DNA of 49,800 nucleotides from an uncultured Clostridia bacterium. Its GTDB lineage: Bacteria > Bacillota > Clostridia > TANB77 > CAG-465. Both the position numbers and the translations under genes were made by a program. The notes under the pieces are model-generated. The model had not been told where the DNA came from, did no database searches, and worked only from the letters and a program-made list of their open reading frames with translations. Where the stretch lies: positions 1-49,800 of the forward strand of contig CALXJE010000045.1 of assembly GCA_944388545.1 (NCBI GenBank). The letters run 5' to 3'. How positions within the stretch are numbered: position 1 is the stretch's first letter; every line of letters starts with the position of its first letter. This document shows, piece after piece, positions 15,042 to 38,841 of the stretch.

Positions 15042-17700
15042 ATGGAAAAGGATATGTATAATCTGAGTATTGAAGAAGTTTTGAAAAATACTAAGAGTTC
15101 AAGTAATGGGTTGACTGATAATGAAGCCAGTAAAAGACTTGAAGAATATGGACTAAATAAATTAAAAGAAGGAAAGAAAAAAACAATATTAGGAAAGTTC
15201 ATAGATCAGTTTAAAAATATTATGATTATAATTTTATTAATTGCAGCTGTAGTGTCAGGAGTAGTTGCTTATATGGAAGGAGAATCACTTACAGATGCAA
15301 TTATAATATTAGTTGTAGTATTTTTAAATGCACTTATGGGAGTAGTACAAGAAAGCAAGGCAGAAAAGGCTATTGATTCTTTAAAGACAATGTCTCTTCC
15401 ATTTATAAAAGTAAAAAGAAATGGAATTATTAAAAGTATAAAAACAGAAGAGTTAGTGGTTGGAGATATTGTTCTTATAGAGGCAGGAGATTTTGTACCT
15501 GCTGACATGAGAATAATTGTAAATAGTAGTTTAAGAGTTGAGGAGGCTGCACTTACAGGAGAGTCGCTTCCAATAGATAAAGAAATAGATACATTAGACG
15601 GTGAAGTACCACTTGCAGAAAGAAAAAATATGTTATATTCAGGAAGTTCTGTTGTATATGGTAGAGGAGAGGGTGTAGTAACCGCAACTGGAATGAATAC
15701 AGAACTTGGTAAAATAGCTACTATTCTTACGGATAGTAAAGAAGAACTTACACCGCTTCAAAAGAAAATGAATGAAATAAGTAAGACGTTAAGTGTTATT
15801 GTTGTTATAATAGGAATTCTTATGGTACTTGTAGGTATAATTAGAGATAATCCAATATTAGAAGTGTTTATGCTTGCCGTATCACTTGCTGTAGCAGCAA
15901 TACCAGAAGGCTTGCCAGCGGCTATAACAATAATACTTTCAATAGGTGTTCAAAAGATGGCAAAAGAAAATAGTATAGTTCGTAAACTGTCATCAGTTGA
16001 AGCACTTGGTTCAACAGAAGTAATATGTTCTGATAAAACAGGAACACTTACACAAAATAAAATGACTGTAAAAGAGATTTGTTTGGGTGTTCAGACAAAA
16101 ACAATTGATAGTATAACATTGAGTGATGCTAAATCAGAAAAAATGGCAACTCTTATACATGGAATGCTTCTTTGTAATGATACAAAATATGGAGAAGAGC
16201 AAGGAACATTATTAGGAGATCCTACAGAAACAGCTTTGGTTGCATTTGCAAACAAATATGATATAGAAAAAAGTAAATATGATATAAAACATGAAAGAAA
16301 AGATGAAATTCCATTTGATTCAGATAGAAAGATGATGAGTACTATAAATGAGTACAAAGATGCATATAGAATGTATACTAAAGGAGCCATAGAATCTATA
16401 CTAGACAGATGTTCACATGCTGTTATAAATGATAGTATTGTTGAGATGACAGAAGACATTAAAAAAAGTATAATAGAAAAAAATAATGAAATGTCGATGA
16501 AGGCGCTTAGAGTTCTTGCTTTTGCATATAAAGATGTAAAAGAATTACCAGAAGAAATGAAGAGCGCTGAACTAGAAAGAAACATGGTTTATGTGGGGCT
16601 TGTAGGAATGATTGATCCACCTAGACCAGAAGCAAAAGATGCAGTAACAAAATGTTTTGAAGCAGGAATGACTCCCGTAATGATAACAGGAGATAATAAA
16701 GAAACGGCAGTAGCAATAGCAACAGAACTTGGAATAATGAAAAAAGGTGTTATTGCAGTAACAGGTGCAGAGCTTGATAAAATGTCTGATGAAGAATTTG
16801 AAAAGAAGATAGATAAAATAAGAGTATATGCAAGAGTGTCGCCTGAAAATAAACTTAGAATAGTTAAAACGTGGAAAAAACTTGGTAAAACTGTTGCGAT
16901 GACAGGAGATGGAGTTAATGATGCACCAGCTCTTAAAAATGCAGACATAGGTGTAGGAATGGGTATAACCCGGTACAGAAGTGTCAAAAAGTGTTTCTAG
17001 CATGGTCATAACTGATGATAACTTTGCGACAATAGTCGTTGCAATTAAAGAAGGAAGAAGAATATATACTAATATTCAAAATGTTATAGCATATCTTTTG
17101 GCTTCAAATTTAGCAGAAGTAATAATTATATTCTTTGGAACATTGTTTGGTCATAATGTAATGTTACCACTTCAACTATTATGGATTAATTTAATAACAG
17201 ACACAATACCAGCTATAACGTTAGGATTTGAAAAAGCAGAGAAAAATATTATGAAAGAAAAACCAAGAAGTGCTAAAGAAAAGTTTTTCAATCCTTTCTT
17301 ATCTTGTAGAATAATTGTTCCAGCTATAATTAAAAGTATATTGATACTTACAGTATTTATGATTATTGAAACTAGTCCTAAATACGGTCATGAAGAAGCT
17401 ATGACAGTTGCCTTTATAATGCTATCATTTATAGAATTACTGTTTGCATATACAATGAGATCTGATAGAAGACTTGTAACTAGTATAGGAATATTTTCTA
17501 ATAAACCAATGTTAATAGGATCATTAATAACTATTGCATTACAGCTTTCAGTAATATTTATACCAGTGTTTGCGGAAGTATTCAGATTAGAAAGATTAGA
17601 TAATCATTTATATCTATTATGTATAGTGTCTGCAATTGGTTTTGTGATTGTAGCTGAAATAGTAAAAGTGATACTTGCTAAAATATTTAACAAAAAGTAA
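15042..17700 (+). pseudogene. Calcium-type P-type ATPase, split by a single-base +1 frameshift
   Basis: Together the two frames give a P2-type ATPase of about 885 residues: N-terminal cation-ATPase domain, TGES actuator loop (LTGESLP), PEGLP in the fourth membrane helix, phosphorylation site DKTGT (D331), KGA nucleotide-binding motif, TGDGVNDAP hinge and a C-terminal membrane domain. The first frame goes off after GVGMGIT at CGG (16971-16973) and ends at 17000. Skipping one C restores GTEVSKSVSSMVITDD and runs to 17700. The family sequence at the join is G-x-T-G-T-E-V, so exactly one base is extra. PEGLP and the membrane Asn/Asp pattern suggest Ca2+ export. Indel, assembly error or recoding are all possible. 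Confidence 0.9.
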
Positions 17701-32822: not shown

Positions 32823-33395
32823 TTAATGCACACCGTTTAATTTTAAGTTTTCAACACTAACTAAGATGTGAGGCTCAGGAACATATACATTAATGGAATA
32901 TTTAAAAGGGATTTCTTTCAAAGAAATTTTTCTAGAAGAATCATTTGGAATGTCAGAAATAGATCTTTCTTTCATTGTCCAAATTAGTTTATGATCCAGA
33001 TGGAAAGAGGCTGGAGTAAATTCGGTAAGATCTTGGTCAATTTTCCATTTATCTTCCTCAATTGGATAATCATAGTCTCTCTTTAAATGTTCATTGTATT
33101 TAGTAGGAGTTGCTGGGTGATTCTCACTTACTATCACAGATAGTATGATGCGTTCACCAATCTTTCTTGAGCCTTGTGACATTACACTTTCCCGAAAACT
33201 TTGAATTATGTCAGAAGGGTCATAGTAAAAGTTTATTTCAAAACTTTTCTCCCATCCATCAGGTAAGACTTCCATTAATTGATTAAATCGACTTTTAGAT
33301 CGAATTTCCCTTAAAAGCAATTCTTGTTGCTTATTAAGTTTTTTGTTGGCCTTTGTAAAACAGTTTTCATTTTTTGTGTAAGTTGAATATAACAT
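32823..33395 (-). CDS. Hypothetical cytoplasmic protein
   Basis: 190 residues from the ATG at 33395, since AAGGAGG lies 6 nt upstream; an ATG at 33401 abuts the site. Charged helical N-terminus (KANKKLNKQQELLLREIR) and a beta-rich rest (SFEINFYYDPSDIIQSF; KYSINVYVPEPHILVSVENL). No membrane span. It contains an in-frame CGG codon, and its codons look less AT-biased than its neighbours, a hint of transfer. No family recognised. Confidence 0.6.
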   Translation of the reverse strand: MLYSTYTKNENCFTKANKKLNKQQELLLREIRSKSRFNQLMEVLPDGWEKSFEINFYYDPSDIIQSFRESVMSQGSRKIGERIILSVIVSENHPATPTKYNEHLKRDYDYPIEEDKWKIDQDLTEFTPASFHLDHKLIWTMKERSISDIPNDSSRKISLKEIPFKYSINVYVPEPHILVSVENLKLNGVH

Positions 33396-33540
33396 GAACA
33401 TCCTCCTTATAAAATAATTATATTTTTAATGTTGGTGTAAATGTGGTATACATAATATCATATTATTGCTAAAAAGTAAATAGATATGGTGTTATTTTTT
33501 AAAGTAGAATAAAATTAATTTAAATTAATAAAATATAATA

Positions 33541-33568
33541 TTGTTATTATTTTAATAAATGATATAAT
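33541..33568 (+). promoter_or_regulatory. Promoter of the thiol-redox operon
   Basis: TTGTTA (33541-33546), 16-nt spacer and TGATATAAT with TATAAT at 33563-33568, about 27 bases before the first ATG. Confidence 0.5.
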
Positions 33569-33594
33569 GTATAAAAAGTAGTGAGGTATATAAT

Positions 33595-34458
33595 ATGTAT
33601 GATGTAATAATTATAGGTAATGGACCTGCGGGAGTATCAGCTTCAATATATACAAAAAGAGCAAATTTAAAGACATTAGTGATAGGGAAAGATGGAGGAG
33701 CTTTAGAGAAAGCTGAGAAGATAGATAATTTTTATGGGTTTCCAAATGGAATAAGTGGCAAAGCATTAATAGACTTAGGAATAGAACAAATAAGAAATTT
33801 AGAAATTGATTTTATTAAAGAGGAAGTAACCGCAATAGATTATGAAAATAATCAATTTACAGTTGTTACTAGAAATATGGATTACAATTCAAAAACGGTC
33901 ATAATAGCAACAGGTGTAAATAGACCAAAATCTAAAGTAGACGGATTAAAAGACTTTGAAGGTAAAGGAGTTAGTTATTGTGCTATTTGTGATGCATTTT
34001 TCTTTAGAGGAAAAGATGTAGCAGTTTTAGGTAATGGAGATTATGCCATCCATGAAATCACTGAACTATTACCAATTGTAAAAACTGTAAATGTATTAAC
34101 AAATGGAAAAGAAAGAATAAATCTAAGAGATGAAAGAATAAAGGTGTATGATAAACCCATTAAAAGATTTTCAGGCCATGATAGATTGGAAAATATAGAA
34201 TTTGAAGATGATACTAAATTACCAGTATCTGCTGTGTTTATGGCAGAAGGAACAGCTTCAAGTGTTGACTTTGCAAGAAGAATAGGAGCAGTTGTAGATA
34301 AAAATAAAATAGTTGTAGATGAAGAGTTTATGACTAATATTCCTGGACTTTTTGCAGCAGGTGATTGTATAGGTGGATTGCTTCAAGTTTCAAAGGCTGT
34401 GTCTGATGGTGCTAAAGCAGGAATAGCCGTTATAAACTATGTGAGGAATAATAAATAA
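33595..34458 (+). CDS. Thioredoxin reductase-like flavoprotein without NADPH motifs
   Basis: 287 residues, shorter than the usual 305-320. FAD sites are intact (IIIGNGPAGVSAS near the start, GLFAAGDCIGG near the end), and the redox pair is C129-A-I-C132 followed by DAFFF. The region that binds NADPH in classical TrxB (GGGDSA and HRRxxFRA) reads GNGDYAIHE, with no HRR motif. Some clostridial thioredoxin reductases with this loss use reduced ferredoxin instead (FFTR type); that electron donor is inference here. First gene of an operon with ccdA, a TlpA-like protein and thioredoxin; its stop overlaps the next ATG. Confidence 0.85.
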   Translation: MYDVIIIGNGPAGVSASIYTKRANLKTLVIGKDGGALEKAEKIDNFYGFPNGISGKALIDLGIEQIRNLEIDFIKEEVTAIDYENNQFTVVTRNMDYNSKTVIIATGVNRPKSKVDGLKDFEGKGVSYCAICDAFFFRGKDVAVLGNGDYAIHEITELLPIVKTVNVLTNGKERINLRDERIKVYDKPIKRFSGHDRLENIEFEDDTKLPVSAVFMAEGTASSVDFARRIGAVVDKNKIVVDEEFMTNIPGLFAAGDCIGGLLQVSKAVSDGAKAGIAVINYVRNNK

Positions 34459-35129
34459 TGGAATATGCAGTAATATTATTAGAAGGAATTATAACTTTTT
34501 TATCACCATGCATGTTGCCAATGCTTCCAATATATATATCATACTTTGCAGGTCAAGAAAATGATAATACTAATAAATTAAAAACATTAAAAAATGCTTT
34601 AGGTTTTGTAATTGGATTTACAATAATATTTACTTTACTTGCTATTTTATCTGCTTCGCTTGGAAGCTTTTTAAAAAGTAATATGTATATAGTAAATGTT
34701 ATATTAGGAATACTTGTTATAGTTTTCGGAATTAATTTAATTGGTATTATTAAATTACCATTTGTAAATAATACTAAAGGTATAAAGTTAAAAAGTAAGA
34801 ATGCTACATTTATATCATCAATAATATTTGGAGTAATATTTTCTATTACGTGGACACCATGTGTTGGAGCGTTTTTAGGAACGGCGCTTAGTATCATATT
34901 AGTAAATGGACATATACTAAAAGGAACAATTCTTATACTTATATATTGTATAGGACTTGGAATTCCATTTATAATTTCTGCTATTCTAATAGACAAACTA
35001 AAAAATACATTTAATGTAATAAAAAAACATTATAAAACTATAAATATAATGTGTGGAATTTTCCTATGTATTATAGGGGTACTCATGATAACGGGATTAA
35101 TAGATAAATATTTTAGTTTAATAATGTAA
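34458..35129 (+). CDS. ccdA: CcdA-type membrane thiol-disulfide transporter
   Basis: 223 residues with six membrane helices. The paired redox cysteines are SPCMLP (C18) and TPCVG (C135). CcdA carries electrons from cytoplasmic thioredoxin across the membrane to exported thiol proteins. The ATG overlaps the preceding stop (TAATG), giving translational coupling. Between a reductase and an anchored TlpA-like protein it forms a complete reducing chain. Confidence 0.92.
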   Translation: MEYAVILLEGIITFLSPCMLPMLPIYISYFAGQENDNTNKLKTLKNALGFVIGFTIIFTLLAILSASLGSFLKSNMYIVNVILGILVIVFGINLIGIIKLPFVNNTKGIKLKSKNATFISSIIFGVIFSITWTPCVGAFLGTALSIILVNGHILKGTILILIYCIGLGIPFIISAILIDKLKNTFNVIKKHYKTINIMCGIFLCIIGVLMITGLIDKYFSLIM

Positions 35130-35146
35130 AAATAGAAAGGAATAAA

Positions 35147-35710
35147 ATGAAAGATAATATAAAAGTGATAATATATGTACTTATATTTGCCTTGTTTATG
35201 GTATTTGCAATTATAGGATATAAAAAGTTATTGGTAAAAGAAAATACAAAAATAAATAATGAAATTAACGATGTAAGTAGTAATACCCAAAGTAGTAAGA
35301 CTAAATTGGAGGATTTTGAAGTATATTCAGAAGATGGCACAAAAGTAAAAGTTTCATCATTTAAGGGGAAACCTATAATAATTAATGTATGGACGTCATG
35401 GTGTACATATTGTAATATAGAAATGCCATATTTTAATGAACTATATTTAAAGGAAAAAGATAATATTAAATTCATGATGATAAATATTACTGGAGATAGG
35501 GATACAAAAGAAGCTGCTAAAAAATTTGTAACAGAAAATAATTATGACTTTGATGTATATTATGATTTGAATTTGGATGCTGCTAGAGCATTAGGAATAT
35601 ATAGTTATCCAACAACGATATTTATAGATAAAGAGGGATATATTGATAGTACTAAAATAGGAGTAATAACTAAAGAAGAATTAGAAAACAAAATAGAAGA
35701 ACTTAAGTAA
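35147..35710 (+). CDS. Membrane-anchored TlpA/ResA-like thioredoxin
   Basis: 187 residues: N-terminal membrane anchor (about 5-23), linker, then a thioredoxin fold with WTSWCTYC (C86, C89) and the cis-proline YPTTIF. Such extracytoplasmic proteins reduce disulfides in exported proteins, fed by CcdA. Strong site AGAAAGGAATAAA, 17 nt after ccdA. Cytochrome c maturation cannot be concluded, since no haem genes are here. Confidence 0.9.
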   Translation: MKDNIKVIIYVLIFALFMVFAIIGYKKLLVKENTKINNEINDVSSNTQSSKTKLEDFEVYSEDGTKVKVSSFKGKPIIINVWTSWCTYCNIEMPYFNELYLKEKDNIKFMMINITGDRDTKEAAKKFVTENNYDFDVYYDLNLDAARALGIYSYPTTIFIDKEGYIDSTKIGVITKEELENKIEELK

Positions 35711-35724
35711 AGGGAGGTGATAAA

Positions 35725-36033
35725 ATGATTTTAGATATTACCAAGAGTAATTTTGAACAAGAAATATTAAAGTCAGATAAAAGAGCTATTGTTGACTTTT
35801 GGGCTGAATGGTGTAATCCTTGCAAAATGATGCATCCAGTACTTGAACAGTTAGACAAGGATTTAGGAGATTCTATAAAAGTAGGAAAAATAAATATTGA
35901 TAATGATCCTGAACTTGCGGCTAAATTTGGAGTTATGAGTATACCAACATTTATTGTTTTTGAAAATGGTACTATGATTAATTCAATAGTTGGAGTTCAA
36001 ACATTAGAAAAATTAAAAGAAATATTAAAATAA
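35725..36033 (+). CDS. trxA: Thioredoxin (CNPC active site)
   Basis: 102 residues, the standard thioredoxin length. The active site is WAEWCNPCKM (C30, C33), unusual beside the common WCGPC; the cis-proline SIPTFIVF is normal. It sits 14 nt after the TlpA-like gene, with GGGAGGTGATAAA upstream. It is the likely partner of the flavin reductase and CcdA; Asn-Pro between the cysteines should alter its redox potential. Confidence 0.95.
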   Translation: MILDITKSNFEQEILKSDKRAIVDFWAEWCNPCKMMHPVLEQLDKDLGDSIKVGKINIDNDPELAAKFGVMSIPTFIVFENGTMINSIVGVQTLEKLKEILK

Positions 36034-36049
36034 TTTTAAGAAGAGATGT

Positions 36050-36083
36050 AAAAAGACTAGCCAAAGTGTGACTAGTCTTTTTG
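36050..36083. terminator. Terminator of the thiol-redox operon
   Basis: AAAAAGACTAG (36050-36060) pairs with CTAGTCTTTTT (36072-36082), with loop CCAAAGTGTGA. Also suited to the convergent PIN gene. Confidence 0.9.
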
Positions 36084-36089
36084 TTATAA

Positions 36090-37055
36090 TTAATGATAAA
36101 TTAATTGATTTTGAAGATTATGATTAAAATTTCTAATAAAATTTTTATATTCTGCTTTAGGAAGAGAATTTATATCCTTGCGTTCATATATTCTTTTAGA
36201 GAAAATTAACTGACAATTATTTTCTGGTCTTATAGAAATAATTTTATAATGAGAAAATGTTATATAGTCTTTTTTGTTAGACGCTATTAAAATATTATCG
36301 CCACTTTTTAGTTCTATTAAGCCTTCTTCGTAAGTTTTATCATTTGATAAAACTCTTATAGATTTCCTAGCAGAAGTAAAAGTAGAAATTAATAGCTTAT
36401 TTCCTAGCATTCTTGCAGAAAACAAAGTAACAAGATTAAATTTTGGCTCAGAAATGTTTCCGACGCAATCTATATATTTAGTTTCAACACCAAGTTTTTT
36501 AGCATTTGATGCCATACCTTTATCTGCTGTCAAAAGTAAAGTTGTATCAATATTATCTACACAGTATTGAACAATAGAATCATCAACAGATAATTTAGTT
36601 TCTTCTAGAAAAATCACTTCAAATTTATCTTGTTTTTTAGTGGCTAAATTCAAAATGTACCTTGCATTATTTCCAGATATATCAGGGTATTTTTTTAATT
36701 TATTAAGTTCTACTATTGTCATGTTAGTAAGAATAAATACATAACTTGATAAAGCGTCTAAAAATTTGGTTAAATTTTGAGTTCTAGTAATAGAAGCATC
36801 TAAAACAACTTTGGTAGATAAAGGACTTTTAGAAGTTATATTATTTTTTTTCTGAGATGTATTAGAATTACTTTTTTTAGACTTTGAAAATTTTTGTATG
36901 ATTTTTTCGAAGAATATAGAAAGACATGCAACAAGTTTGGGATAAGTTAGCCTTTGTTTTTTTGTAATACCTTGTAAGCTTTTTGCATTTTTTATACGTT
37001 TTCTAGTTTTTACAAAGTCTTTTTTAATTTTTTTCCGTGTTTTTCTAAAGATCAT
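36090..37055 (-). CDS. PIN-domain protein, PhoH-type nuclease domain
   Basis: 321 residues. A very basic N-terminus (residues 1-80, rich in Lys, Arg and Ser) precedes a PIN domain: VVLDAS, TIVELNKLKK, VDDSIVQYC and LLLTADKGMASNAKKLGVE, with the three or four acidic metal ligands present. A C-terminal beta region of about 100 residues is a possible nucleic-acid-binding barrel. PIN domains are metal-dependent RNases; PhoH itself is absent. Good site AAAAGGAGAATTGAATC. The basic tail suggests nucleic-acid binding. Confidence 0.75.
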   Translation of the reverse strand: MIFRKTRKKIKKDFVKTRKRIKNAKSLQGITKKQRLTYPKLVACLSIFFEKIIQKFSKSKKSNSNTSQKKNNITSKSPLSTKVVLDASITRTQNLTKFLDALSSYVFILTNMTIVELNKLKKYPDISGNNARYILNLATKKQDKFEVIFLEETKLSVDDSIVQYCVDNIDTTLLLTADKGMASNAKKLGVETKYIDCVGNISEPKFNLVTLFSARMLGNKLLISTFTSARKSIRVLSNDKTYEEGLIELKSGDNILIASNKKDYITFSHYKIISIRPENNCQLIFSKRIYERKDINSLPKAEYKNFIRNFNHNLQNQLIYH

Positions 37056-37263
37056 TGATTCAATTCTCCTTTTAATTATTTTTTTGTTTCTCCGAGAAAA
37101 TAGTCTCTATATTTTCCTCTAATTAGACATATTAATAAAAATATAGTATATAGCCCTCCCTTCATAACTAATAAGTGTGAAACTTTACATAAAATACATC
37201 TTTATTATATAATAATTATATATTCTTGTAAAGGGGGTATAATAAAAATAGGCGTAAAAAAGA

Positions 37264-37302
37264 CCCTAATATTATAATAAAATTTAATATTAGGATTTTT
37301 TT
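37264..37302. terminator. Bidirectional terminator after the SPFH gene
   Basis: CCTAATATTA (37265-37274) pairs with TAATATTAGG (37285-37294), with T-runs on both strands. The bases between the PIN gene start and here (37056-37263) show only AT-rich promoter-type DNA. Confidence 0.8.
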
Positions 37303-37312
37303 AATTTTTGTA

Positions 37313-38242
37313 TTATTTGTCGTTTATAATTTCTTTTGCTGCACCAAGAGCTCCTAAAGCTTTAGTTGCATCAAATGGGATAAATACTTTATTTGCAGGA
37401 CCCTCTGCTACTTTTTCAAGCGATTCTAATGTTTTTAAAGCAACAAGATTATCACTAGGTTTTGCATCCATGATAGCACCATAAACTGCTGAAATTTCTT
37501 GTGCTTTTGCTTCTGCTATCTTTTTAATTGCCTCTGAAGTACCTTCAGCTTCAAGAATTTTAGCTTCTCTAATACCTTGTGCTTTTCTTATACTTGATTC
37601 TCTTTCAGCTTCAGCTTCTAATATAACTGCTTGTTTTTTACCTTCTGCATGAGTGATATCAGATTGTCTTTTTCCTTCAGCTTCAAGTATAGCAGCTCTC
37701 TTAGTTCTCTCTGCATTCATTTGCTTTTCCATTGCATCACGAATATCAGCTGGAGGTTTAATATCTTTTATTTCAACCCTTTCAACTTTACAACCCCATT
37801 TATCAGTTGCTAAGTCCAATACATCTCTTAGCTGAGCATTTATAGAATCCCTTGAGCTAAATGTATTATCTAAATCCATTTTACCTACTATATCACGAAT
37901 TGTTGTTATTGCAAGATAAGCAATACCTTTTTGTAAGTTTTCTATTTCGTATACCGCTTTTGCAGGATCAGTTATTTGATAGAAAACAACAGTATCTATT
38001 GTTATAGTAACATTATCTTTTGTGATAACTCCTTGTGGCGGTACGTCCATAGTTTGTTGTTTAAGACTAACAACAGCTCTAACTCTATCTACAAAAGGAA
38101 ATATTAAGTTAAGTCCAGCATCAGCTTGTTTATAGAACTTACCTAACCTTTCTATAATGTAGACTTCAGATTGTCTAACAACTTTAATGGAAAATAAAGC
38201 AATTATTACTAAGAAGATAAAAATACCAATTAAAACTCCCAT
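37313..38242 (-). CDS. SPFH/stomatin-family membrane protein
   Basis: 309 residues: N-terminal membrane segment (GVLIGIFIFLVIIALFSIKV), the SPFH/band-7 domain (VVRQSEVYIIERLGKFYKQ; TIDTVVFYQITDPAKAVYEI), then a repetitive Ala/Glu/Lys coiled coil (residues about 180-240, ILEAEGKRQS-type repeats) and a hydrophobic tail. Such proteins form large rings organising membrane microdomains. Paired with an NfeD gene 22 nt upstream, the usual operon. Confidence 0.93.
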   Translation of the reverse strand: MGVLIGIFIFLVIIALFSIKVVRQSEVYIIERLGKFYKQADAGLNLIFPFVDRVRAVVSLKQQTMDVPPQGVITKDNVTITIDTVVFYQITDPAKAVYEIENLQKGIAYLAITTIRDIVGKMDLDNTFSSRDSINAQLRDVLDLATDKWGCKVERVEIKDIKPPADIRDAMEKQMNAERTKRAAILEAEGKRQSDITHAEGKKQAVILEAEAERESSIRKAQGIREAKILEAEGTSEAIKKIAEAKAQEISAVYGAIMDAKPSDNLVALKTLESLEKVAEGPANKVFIPFDATKALGALGAAKEIINDK

Positions 38243-38264
38243 ATAAAAAATCCTCCTTCATTTA

Positions 38265-38693
38265 TTAAACCTTTTTAACAATAAGTCTAACACCTTCAAT
38301 TTTAAGTACTACTACAGTAGAACCTTCTTCAATCTCTTCATCATTAGAAGATACTGCTGACCAAACTTCGCCAGCTACTTTAACTTGCCCTTTGCCGTGC
38401 AAATTATCTATTGGTTTTATAACCAACGCATTTTTACCAATTACAGAACTAGAGTTCATAGCAACATTCTTCGTTTTAAAGAATTTAGTAACAATTGGTC
38501 TTATAAAAGCAATTAATAAAAGCGAAGATACGACAAACACAATTACTTGTACTTGCATACTAGCACCAAATATTGCACATAAGAATGCTAAAAATGCTCC
38601 TAAAGCAGGGAAGAATAGTAAAAAGCTAATAGTAAATATTTCAAGTAAAAACATAATAGCACTTGCTATAAGCCATATCCCCCAAAGTGGCAT
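38265..38693 (-). CDS. nfeD: NfeD-family membrane protein
   Basis: 142 residues from the ATG at 38693, selected because AGAGGAGGTGC lies just upstream; an earlier ATG at 38747 has no such site. Membrane helices are near residues 3-22, 25-45 and 50-68, then a soluble OB-fold (IGKNALVIKPIDNLHGKGQV; GSTVVVLKIEGVRLIV). NfeD works with SPFH partners. This is the short form lacking a protease domain. Confidence 0.9.
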   Translation of the reverse strand: MPLWGIWLIASAIMFLLEIFTISFLLFFPALGAFLAFLCAIFGASMQVQVIVFVVSSLLLIAFIRPIVTKFFKTKNVAMNSSSVIGKNALVIKPIDNLHGKGQVKVAGEVWSAVSSNDEEIEEGSTVVVLKIEGVRLIVKKV

Positions 38694-38841
38694 CTTAAGC
38701 ACCTCCTCTCGTAACATTATAATGAATATATTTAAATTATATAACAAAAATATTTAAAAAGAAAGCTTTTTGGTGTAAATAATAAAAATAAATATATAGA
38801 TAAAAAATATTAAAATTGTTCACAAATTAATAACTTTGATA

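Follow-up and report, generated by a model that had tools for sequence, protein, structure and literature searches.

A TRi-type thioredoxin reductase encoded in one operon with a CcdA and TlpA-like thiol relay in an uncultured Clostridia bacterium

The CcdA-ResA/StoA relay of Bacillus is supplied with electrons from NADPH through a standard TrxB, and its genes are not arranged in an operon with the reductase. In a streptococcal pathway, CcdA likewise reduces exported thioredoxin-like proteins, with NADPH and TrxB as the presumed source and MsrAB as a dedicated client (PMC7034828). Among reductases with other donors, ferredoxin dependence has been demonstrated for the FFTRs, whose FAD potential is very low (-448 mV in Gloeobacter), and two proteins of C. 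difficile have been placed in this family from sequence. The TRi family, in contrast, was defined by the replacement of HRRD with TQ/NGK in 17 members from Deltaproteobacteria and Clostridia (Valette et al., 2017, PMC5627308), and some clostridia have TRi alone (PMC5627308). The enzyme of Desulfovibrio vulgaris, DvTRi, accepted no electrons from NADPH or NADH at up to 1 mM, while the artificially reduced enzyme was able to reduce its thioredoxin; deletion of the gene led to higher diamide sensitivity, and its transcript increased about 11-fold in air (PMC5627308). The authors could not name the electron donor; they disfavoured ferredoxin because the TRi pocket differs in sequence from that of the clostridial enzyme that depends on ferredoxin, and put forward flavodoxin instead (Valette et al., 2017, PMC5627308). 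No paper after 2017 that names DvTRi or its donor was found in the literature searched.

Here we describe a locus in which a reductase of the TRi type is encoded together with a CcdA relay. The window, i.e. the whole stretch of 49,800 nucleotides analyzed, contains at 33595-36033 four consecutive open reading frames on the + strand, exactly where the first-pass annotation had placed a four-gene thiol-redox operon:

33595..34458, + strand: flavin thioredoxin reductase assigned to the TRi family, 287 aa (open reading frame, domain, tree, fold)
34458..35129, + strand: CcdA-type membrane thiol electron carrier, 223 aa (open reading frame, domain)
35147..35710, + strand: membrane-anchored ResA/StoA/TlpA-like thiol-disulfide oxidoreductase, 187 aa (domain, fold)
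35725..36033, + strand: cytosolic thioredoxin, 102 aa (domain, WCNPC)
33541..33568, + strand: promoter-like site TTGTTA-16-TATAAT with extended -10 TG, 10/12 consensus matches
36049..36083, + strand: terminator hairpin with U-tract, -13.1 kcal/mol, z -3.4

The reductase stop and the CcdA start overlap by 1 nt, and gaps of 17 nt and 14 nt separate CcdA from the TlpA-like gene and the latter from the thioredoxin gene. All Pfam scores exceeded their cut-offs (Pyr_redox_2 115.7 bits, DsbD_TM 69.3 against 27.1, Redoxin/AhpC-TSA 79, Thioredoxin 104.5). The promoter-like site is weak evidence by itself, since shuffled sequences give nearly as many such sites (22.4) as were observed (29); the hairpin, which a simple scanner overlooked, was found by folding. 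The common strand, the tight packing, the promoter-like site before and the hairpin after the genes bear out the operon, and the recurrence of the unit in relatives described below supports the view that CcdA, the anchored TlpA-like protein and the CNPC thioredoxin form one unit with the reductase.

The motifs of the reductase are as follows:

33616..33633, + strand: FAD-binding GNGPAG (GxGxxG), with G8, G10 and G13 invariant in 53 aligned proteins
33979..33990, + strand: redox-active CAIC (C129, C132), between the thioredoxin-binding GKG and FFF
34030..34056, + strand: degenerate pyrophosphate site GNGDYAIHE (canonical GGGDSAxEE), GxGxxA kept
34099..34119, + strand: TNGKERI replacing HRRxxxRA, with the TRi signature T(Q/N)GK as TNGK at residues 169-172
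34345..34365, + strand: FAD motif GLFAAGD

In addition, the FAD motif ATG is present, and the thioredoxin-binding G[R/K]G and FF are retained (GKGVSYCAICDAFFF). The first-pass annotation had described a thioredoxin reductase without NADPH motifs that keeps its FAD sites and CAIC. The latter holds throughout (GNGPAG, ATG, GLFAAGD and CAIC are all there), as does the absence of HRRxxFRA, in place of which TNGKERI is read. The missing GGGDSA is literally true, although GNGDYAIHE still keeps the general GxGxxA fingerprint, and the known TRi family was not recognised. Judged from the sequence, it is the loss of HRRxxxR that is the informative change, not the wording of GGGDSA.

Because of the idea of a ferredoxin donor, membership in FFTR was considered first; it was rejected, since the window protein lies outside the FFTR clade (100/99; 6gna, 6gnc and the relatives L008-L010 and L110) and keeps GxGxxA as GNGDYA, whereas FFTRs lose both motifs. 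In the same maximum-likelihood tree of 59 proteins a 99/99 branch groups the window reductase with DvTRi, itself a long branch, apart from the FFTRs and from the NADPH enzymes (NTR), which are separate from both clades. The best PDB sequence match was DvTRi (5nii, E 6.7e-55; next 4e-40), and a profile of 53 proteins matched 5nii with 284 bits and the next entry with 219, a separation of 65 bits. An AlphaFold model (pLDDT 92) superposed on 5nii with Z 36.9 and an rmsd of 1.9 A over 286 residues, followed by the FFTRs 6gna (Z 29.6, 4.3 A), 5j60, 6xtf and 6gnc. The structural comparison with ferredoxin-linked enzymes that the first-pass annotation had suggested thus placed DvTRi closest and the ferredoxin-dependent 6gna only second. 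Full-length superposition of most NADPH enzymes on the model left an rmsd of about 13-16 A, owing to a different angle between their two domains. On account of the tree, the PDB sequence match and the fold match, the window reductase almost certainly belongs to TRi, with which it shares T(Q/N)GK, a degenerate GGGxxAxE, G[R/K]G and FF, the tree grouping and the domain angle of DvTRi. A classical NADPH-dependent TrxB was rejected on the absence of HRRxxxR and GGGxxAxE, on the tree and on a TIGR01292 score of 228.8 bits against a cut-off of 343.45.

Besides the clade, the window reductase and DvTRi have in common 41% identity, TNGK/TQGK, a predicted open domain arrangement and a thioredoxin partner. 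However, DvTRi is an isolated gene in a genome that also has the NADPH-dependent TR1, whereas the window TRi lies in an operon with its own thioredoxin and a CcdA-TlpA relay and is the only thioredoxin reductase found in the host genome, in which a Pyr_redox_2 search gave no second full-length reductase of TRi type. With the FFTRs (6gna/6gnc of acetobutylicum, 5j60/6xtf of Gloeobacter, TrxB1 of C. difficile) it shares the lack of HRRxxxR, the open conformation and the character of a small TR-fold flavoenzyme paired with a thioredoxin. In contrast, identity between clostridial FFTR and the window TRi is only about 32%, GxGxxA is lost in the former and kept in the latter, and ferredoxin use is demonstrated for FFTR but only proposed for the window TRi.

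Since the window reductase is assigned to TRi, and since DvTRi, the member of that family that has been studied, is reduced by neither NADPH nor NADH, the window enzyme is most probably NAD(P)H-independent, as the first-pass annotation had proposed. The ferredoxin-type donor put forward there fared less evenly: the enzyme is not an FFTR and the pocket argument stands against it, while the absence of flavodoxin families speaks for it by elimination. In the source assembly, a small clostridial genome of gut type (1.15 Mb, 49 contigs, completeness rated 100%), a Fer4_7 search gave four places. One is a 2[4Fe-4S] ferredoxin, the single free one, which is about 56 aa long and has 10 acidic residues and 3 basic ones; another is a PorD subunit adjoining PorA; the remaining two are subunits of a [FeFe] hydrogenase of group A6, which has a NuoF-like partner. 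Flavodoxin_1 (PF00258) and Flavodoxin_3 (PF12641), the two families searched, had no match in the window genome or in that of its genus mate. With no such flavodoxin found, and with a free ferredoxin present alongside ferredoxin-reducing enzymes, ferredoxin is by elimination the likelier donor, and we narrowly favor it as the donor of the window TRi.

That the physiological donor is instead a flavodoxin or another flavoprotein, ferredoxin being unused, appears unlikely for this host given the absence of both families from its genome and that of its genus mate, and given that, among 385 genomes of the order, strong Flavodoxin_3 genes occur in only about 28 but TRi in 214. A corresponding count for PF00258 is uninformative as a flavodoxin census, because most of its strong matches are open reading frames that reach about 400 aa and, judging by this length, probably encode flavodiiron proteins. 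Nevertheless, a flavodoxin was what the DvTRi paper proposed (PMC5627308), and genus g7 has five genomes (G057, G305, G195, G231, G137) in which TRi, thioredoxin and a BilS-type flavodoxin gene follow each other in series on the same strand, the flavodoxin lying just downstream:

L128:3055-3570, BilS-type flavodoxin gene
L129:3196-3711, BilS-type flavodoxin gene
L130:3161-3676, BilS-type flavodoxin gene
L131:3515-4030, BilS-type flavodoxin gene
G137:C2:136157-136630, BilS-type flavodoxin gene

The two that were scored reached 212-214 bits against a BilS cut-off of 155, and that of G137 was placed by coordinates only. The BilS-type flavodoxin is a possible donor gene for TRi in this genus; flavodoxin is therefore favored there, which argues against a universal ferredoxin rule. 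We infer that TRi uses whichever low-potential one-electron carrier its host offers.

The thiol sites of the three downstream proteins are the following:

34509..34511, + strand: CcdA Cys18, present in 31/32 aligned relatives, with one gap
34860..34862, + strand: CcdA Cys135, invariant (32/32)
35399..35413, + strand: WCTYC active site (C86, C89) of the TlpA-like protein
35809..35823, + strand: WCNPC motif of the thioredoxin, mostly WCGPC in relatives

CcdA has five cysteines, and only Cys18 and Cys135 are conserved, which are the two membrane cysteines expected of CcdA. The model of the TlpA-like protein consists of a single long N-terminal helix and a thioredoxin fold, and the WCxxC cysteines and P155 (cis-Pro) are invariant in the alignment, so that the N-terminal anchor, thioredoxin fold, CxxC and cis-Pro of exported ResA/StoA/TlpA-type proteins are all found. 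As it stays below the curated NCBIfam cut-offs (87.6 of 170 bits for ResA, 79.9 of 210 for StoA), the protein is taken to function like ResA/StoA and is not filed as either. The thioredoxin reached 118.5 bits for TIGR01068 (cut-off 96.8).

TRi was found in the 214 genomes of the order at E <= 1e-45, in the examined loci mostly with a thioredoxin gene next to it, and CcdA in 113 of the 385. The order TRi-CcdA-TlpA-thioredoxin occurs in ten genomes counting the window (the others being G063, G172, G368, G382, G244, G150, G090, G159 and G076). In G076 CcdA and TlpA are fused in one 399-aa frame; in G382, G244, G159, G150 and G090 the TRi gene is in two pieces or without its end, possibly through frameshifts in draft assemblies, and L022 from another collection is apparently the same record as G159, with which it shares the flanking genes and the length of the contig. 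Two further genomes (G268, G212) show the order CcdA, thioredoxin-like gene, TRi. Altogether, TRi is linked to CcdA in at least 12 of the 385 genomes. Among the 39 genomes with both positions listed, seven adjacencies were observed compared to about 0.2 expected, and five more come from individually examined loci outside these 39. The linkage is not due to chance; since the genomes are related, the 12 cases, which cover six genera, are not independent events.

The neighbors of TRi in the window (the 32823 gene, Band_7, NfeD, GH18) are also found around TRi in G029, the genus mate, but there ccdA-tlpA-trx and the gene at 36090 are missing, a four-gene insertion or deletion relative to window 32823-38747 (L102). 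The latter gene (36090-37055, - strand) encodes a 321-aa protein without a Pfam match, which from its sequence looks like a PIN-domain protein whose N-terminus is basic. Elsewhere, G029 has CcdA, a short TlpA-like protein and a thioredoxin beside a pyridine-nucleotide-disulfide-oxidoreductase/rhodanese gene. Because TRi occupies the same place there without ccdA-tlpA-trx, export is not an obligate role of TRi. The window TRi tends to group with relatives that do not have the block, whereas CcdA and thioredoxin are nearest to block members, both with low tree support. Horizontal capture of the whole block was rejected on these differing affinities, at the same low support. The ccdA-tlpA-trx genes may have been gained beside a resident TRi, or lost in G029.

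An FFTR search of the order gave 127 matches, most of them TRi genes, and only four genomes score as FFTR. These true FFTRs, in genomes from the family and order of the window genome, stand where relatives have TRi (L008, L009 and L010 in G012, G003 and G006, respectively; L110 in G209) and adjoin a thioredoxin in L008, L009 and L010; one NADPH-independent reductase has apparently taken the place of another. TRi-like proteins were also seen in Thermoplasmatota archaeal bins (L024, L027), outside the TRi taxa of 2017 and possibly through bin contamination.

With fair confidence, we regard the operon as encoding a full chain that conducts electrons from a low-potential carrier in the cytosol to the outer side of the cell membrane, a reading based on the reductase family, the conserved cysteines, the linkage and recurrence of the genes and the carrier inventory. 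A one-electron carrier, here most likely the 2[4Fe-4S] ferredoxin, would reduce TRi, which would take no hydride from NAD(P)H; electrons would then pass from FAD to the CAIC cysteines, to the WCNPC thioredoxin and to the two membrane cysteines of CcdA. CcdA would in turn reduce the ResA/StoA-like protein at its WCTYC domain, which faces outward, so that exported thiols would stay reduced. This relay is likely to run outward, in the reducing direction.

It is quite unlikely that the thioredoxin serves cytosolic targets only, such as peroxide defence with CcdA-TlpA merely co-transcribed, or that the relay is SdbA-like and oxidising. TRi with thioredoxin alone is indeed the commonest arrangement, and in G172 the block of four is followed by a gene for an AhpC/1-Cys-type peroxiredoxin (L094:6847-7554), with a similar open reading frame in G368 (L095:1940-2710), which suggests that the thioredoxin of the block may also serve peroxide defence. 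Yet the four-gene block is conserved across several genera, and CcdA and TlpA are fused in G076. The top fold match of the TlpA-like model is S. gordonii SdbA (Z 23.4), a disulfide-forming enzyme, but ResA structures tie with it (23.0; StoA lower at 18.0), and an oxidase requires an acceptor that the thioredoxin of an anaerobe would hardly supply. Even less probable than this departure from the outward reducing relay is an ordinary pyridine-nucleotide chain to CcdA, in which the reductase has merely changed its specificity to NADH (or weak NADPH use), as the retained GNGDYA fingerprint and the NADH-linked hydrogenase of the host might suggest, since DvTRi, the nearest studied enzyme, is reduced by neither nucleotide up to 1 mM, the arginines of HRRxxxRA are missing and the predicted domain arrangement fits DvTRi and then the ferredoxin-dependent enzymes.

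The host looks like a spore former, judging from SpoIIE in the window and SpoIVA elsewhere in the genome (E 6.5e-119). It thereby resembles Bacillus subtilis, with which it also shares CcdA, a membrane-anchored CxxC reductase and a SpoVD-like client candidate. Two of its three penicillin-binding proteins have S-C-N together with a set of cysteines plus a histidine, the spacing of which matches that of the zinc site in C. difficile PBP2, PBP3 and SpoVD: the SpoVD-like protein (C344/C357/H364/C377; 599 bits against a cut-off of 688), whose following gene reads as murE, and PBP2 (D423/C435/H445/C458; 539 bits against 455). The matching motif of B. subtilis SpoVD is reported to interact with StoA (Sacco et al.). 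Zinc-thiolate penicillin-binding proteins of growth and spore cortex synthesis, with predicted sites outside the membrane, would be the likeliest clients, an assignment that we offer only tentatively. The PBP2 gene adjoins a gene for a radical-SAM-like protein with clustered cysteines that reads like spore photoproduct lyase (L088:2659-3675, - strand).

While the TRi family and its NADPH-independence were already known, its recurrent coupling to a CcdA-TlpA relay is new, as are a host in which TRi was the one reductase detected and flavodoxin was not detected, and the flavodoxin neighbor in relatives. TRi could, with somewhat less than an even chance, represent a second class of thioredoxin reductases that evolved separately and draws on low-potential carriers, either ferredoxin or flavodoxin depending on the host. 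In the present operon it would then power the reduction of exported proteins, the ferredoxin pool keeping enzymes of the cell envelope and the spore reduced with no need for NADPH. With ferredoxin as the donor, the export of reducing power in these anaerobes would be tied to fermentation and not to NADPH. As searches of its genome gave TRi as the sole thioredoxin reductase, no member of two flavodoxin families and just one small free ferredoxin, the host offers a clean test case for the TRi donor, and the flavodoxin gene beside TRi in relatives provides a second, independent handle on this question. Elsewhere in the window, a P-type cation ATPase is apparently split into overlapping frames of 652 and 239 aa (15042-17000 and 16981-17700, + strand), through a frameshift or an assembly error.
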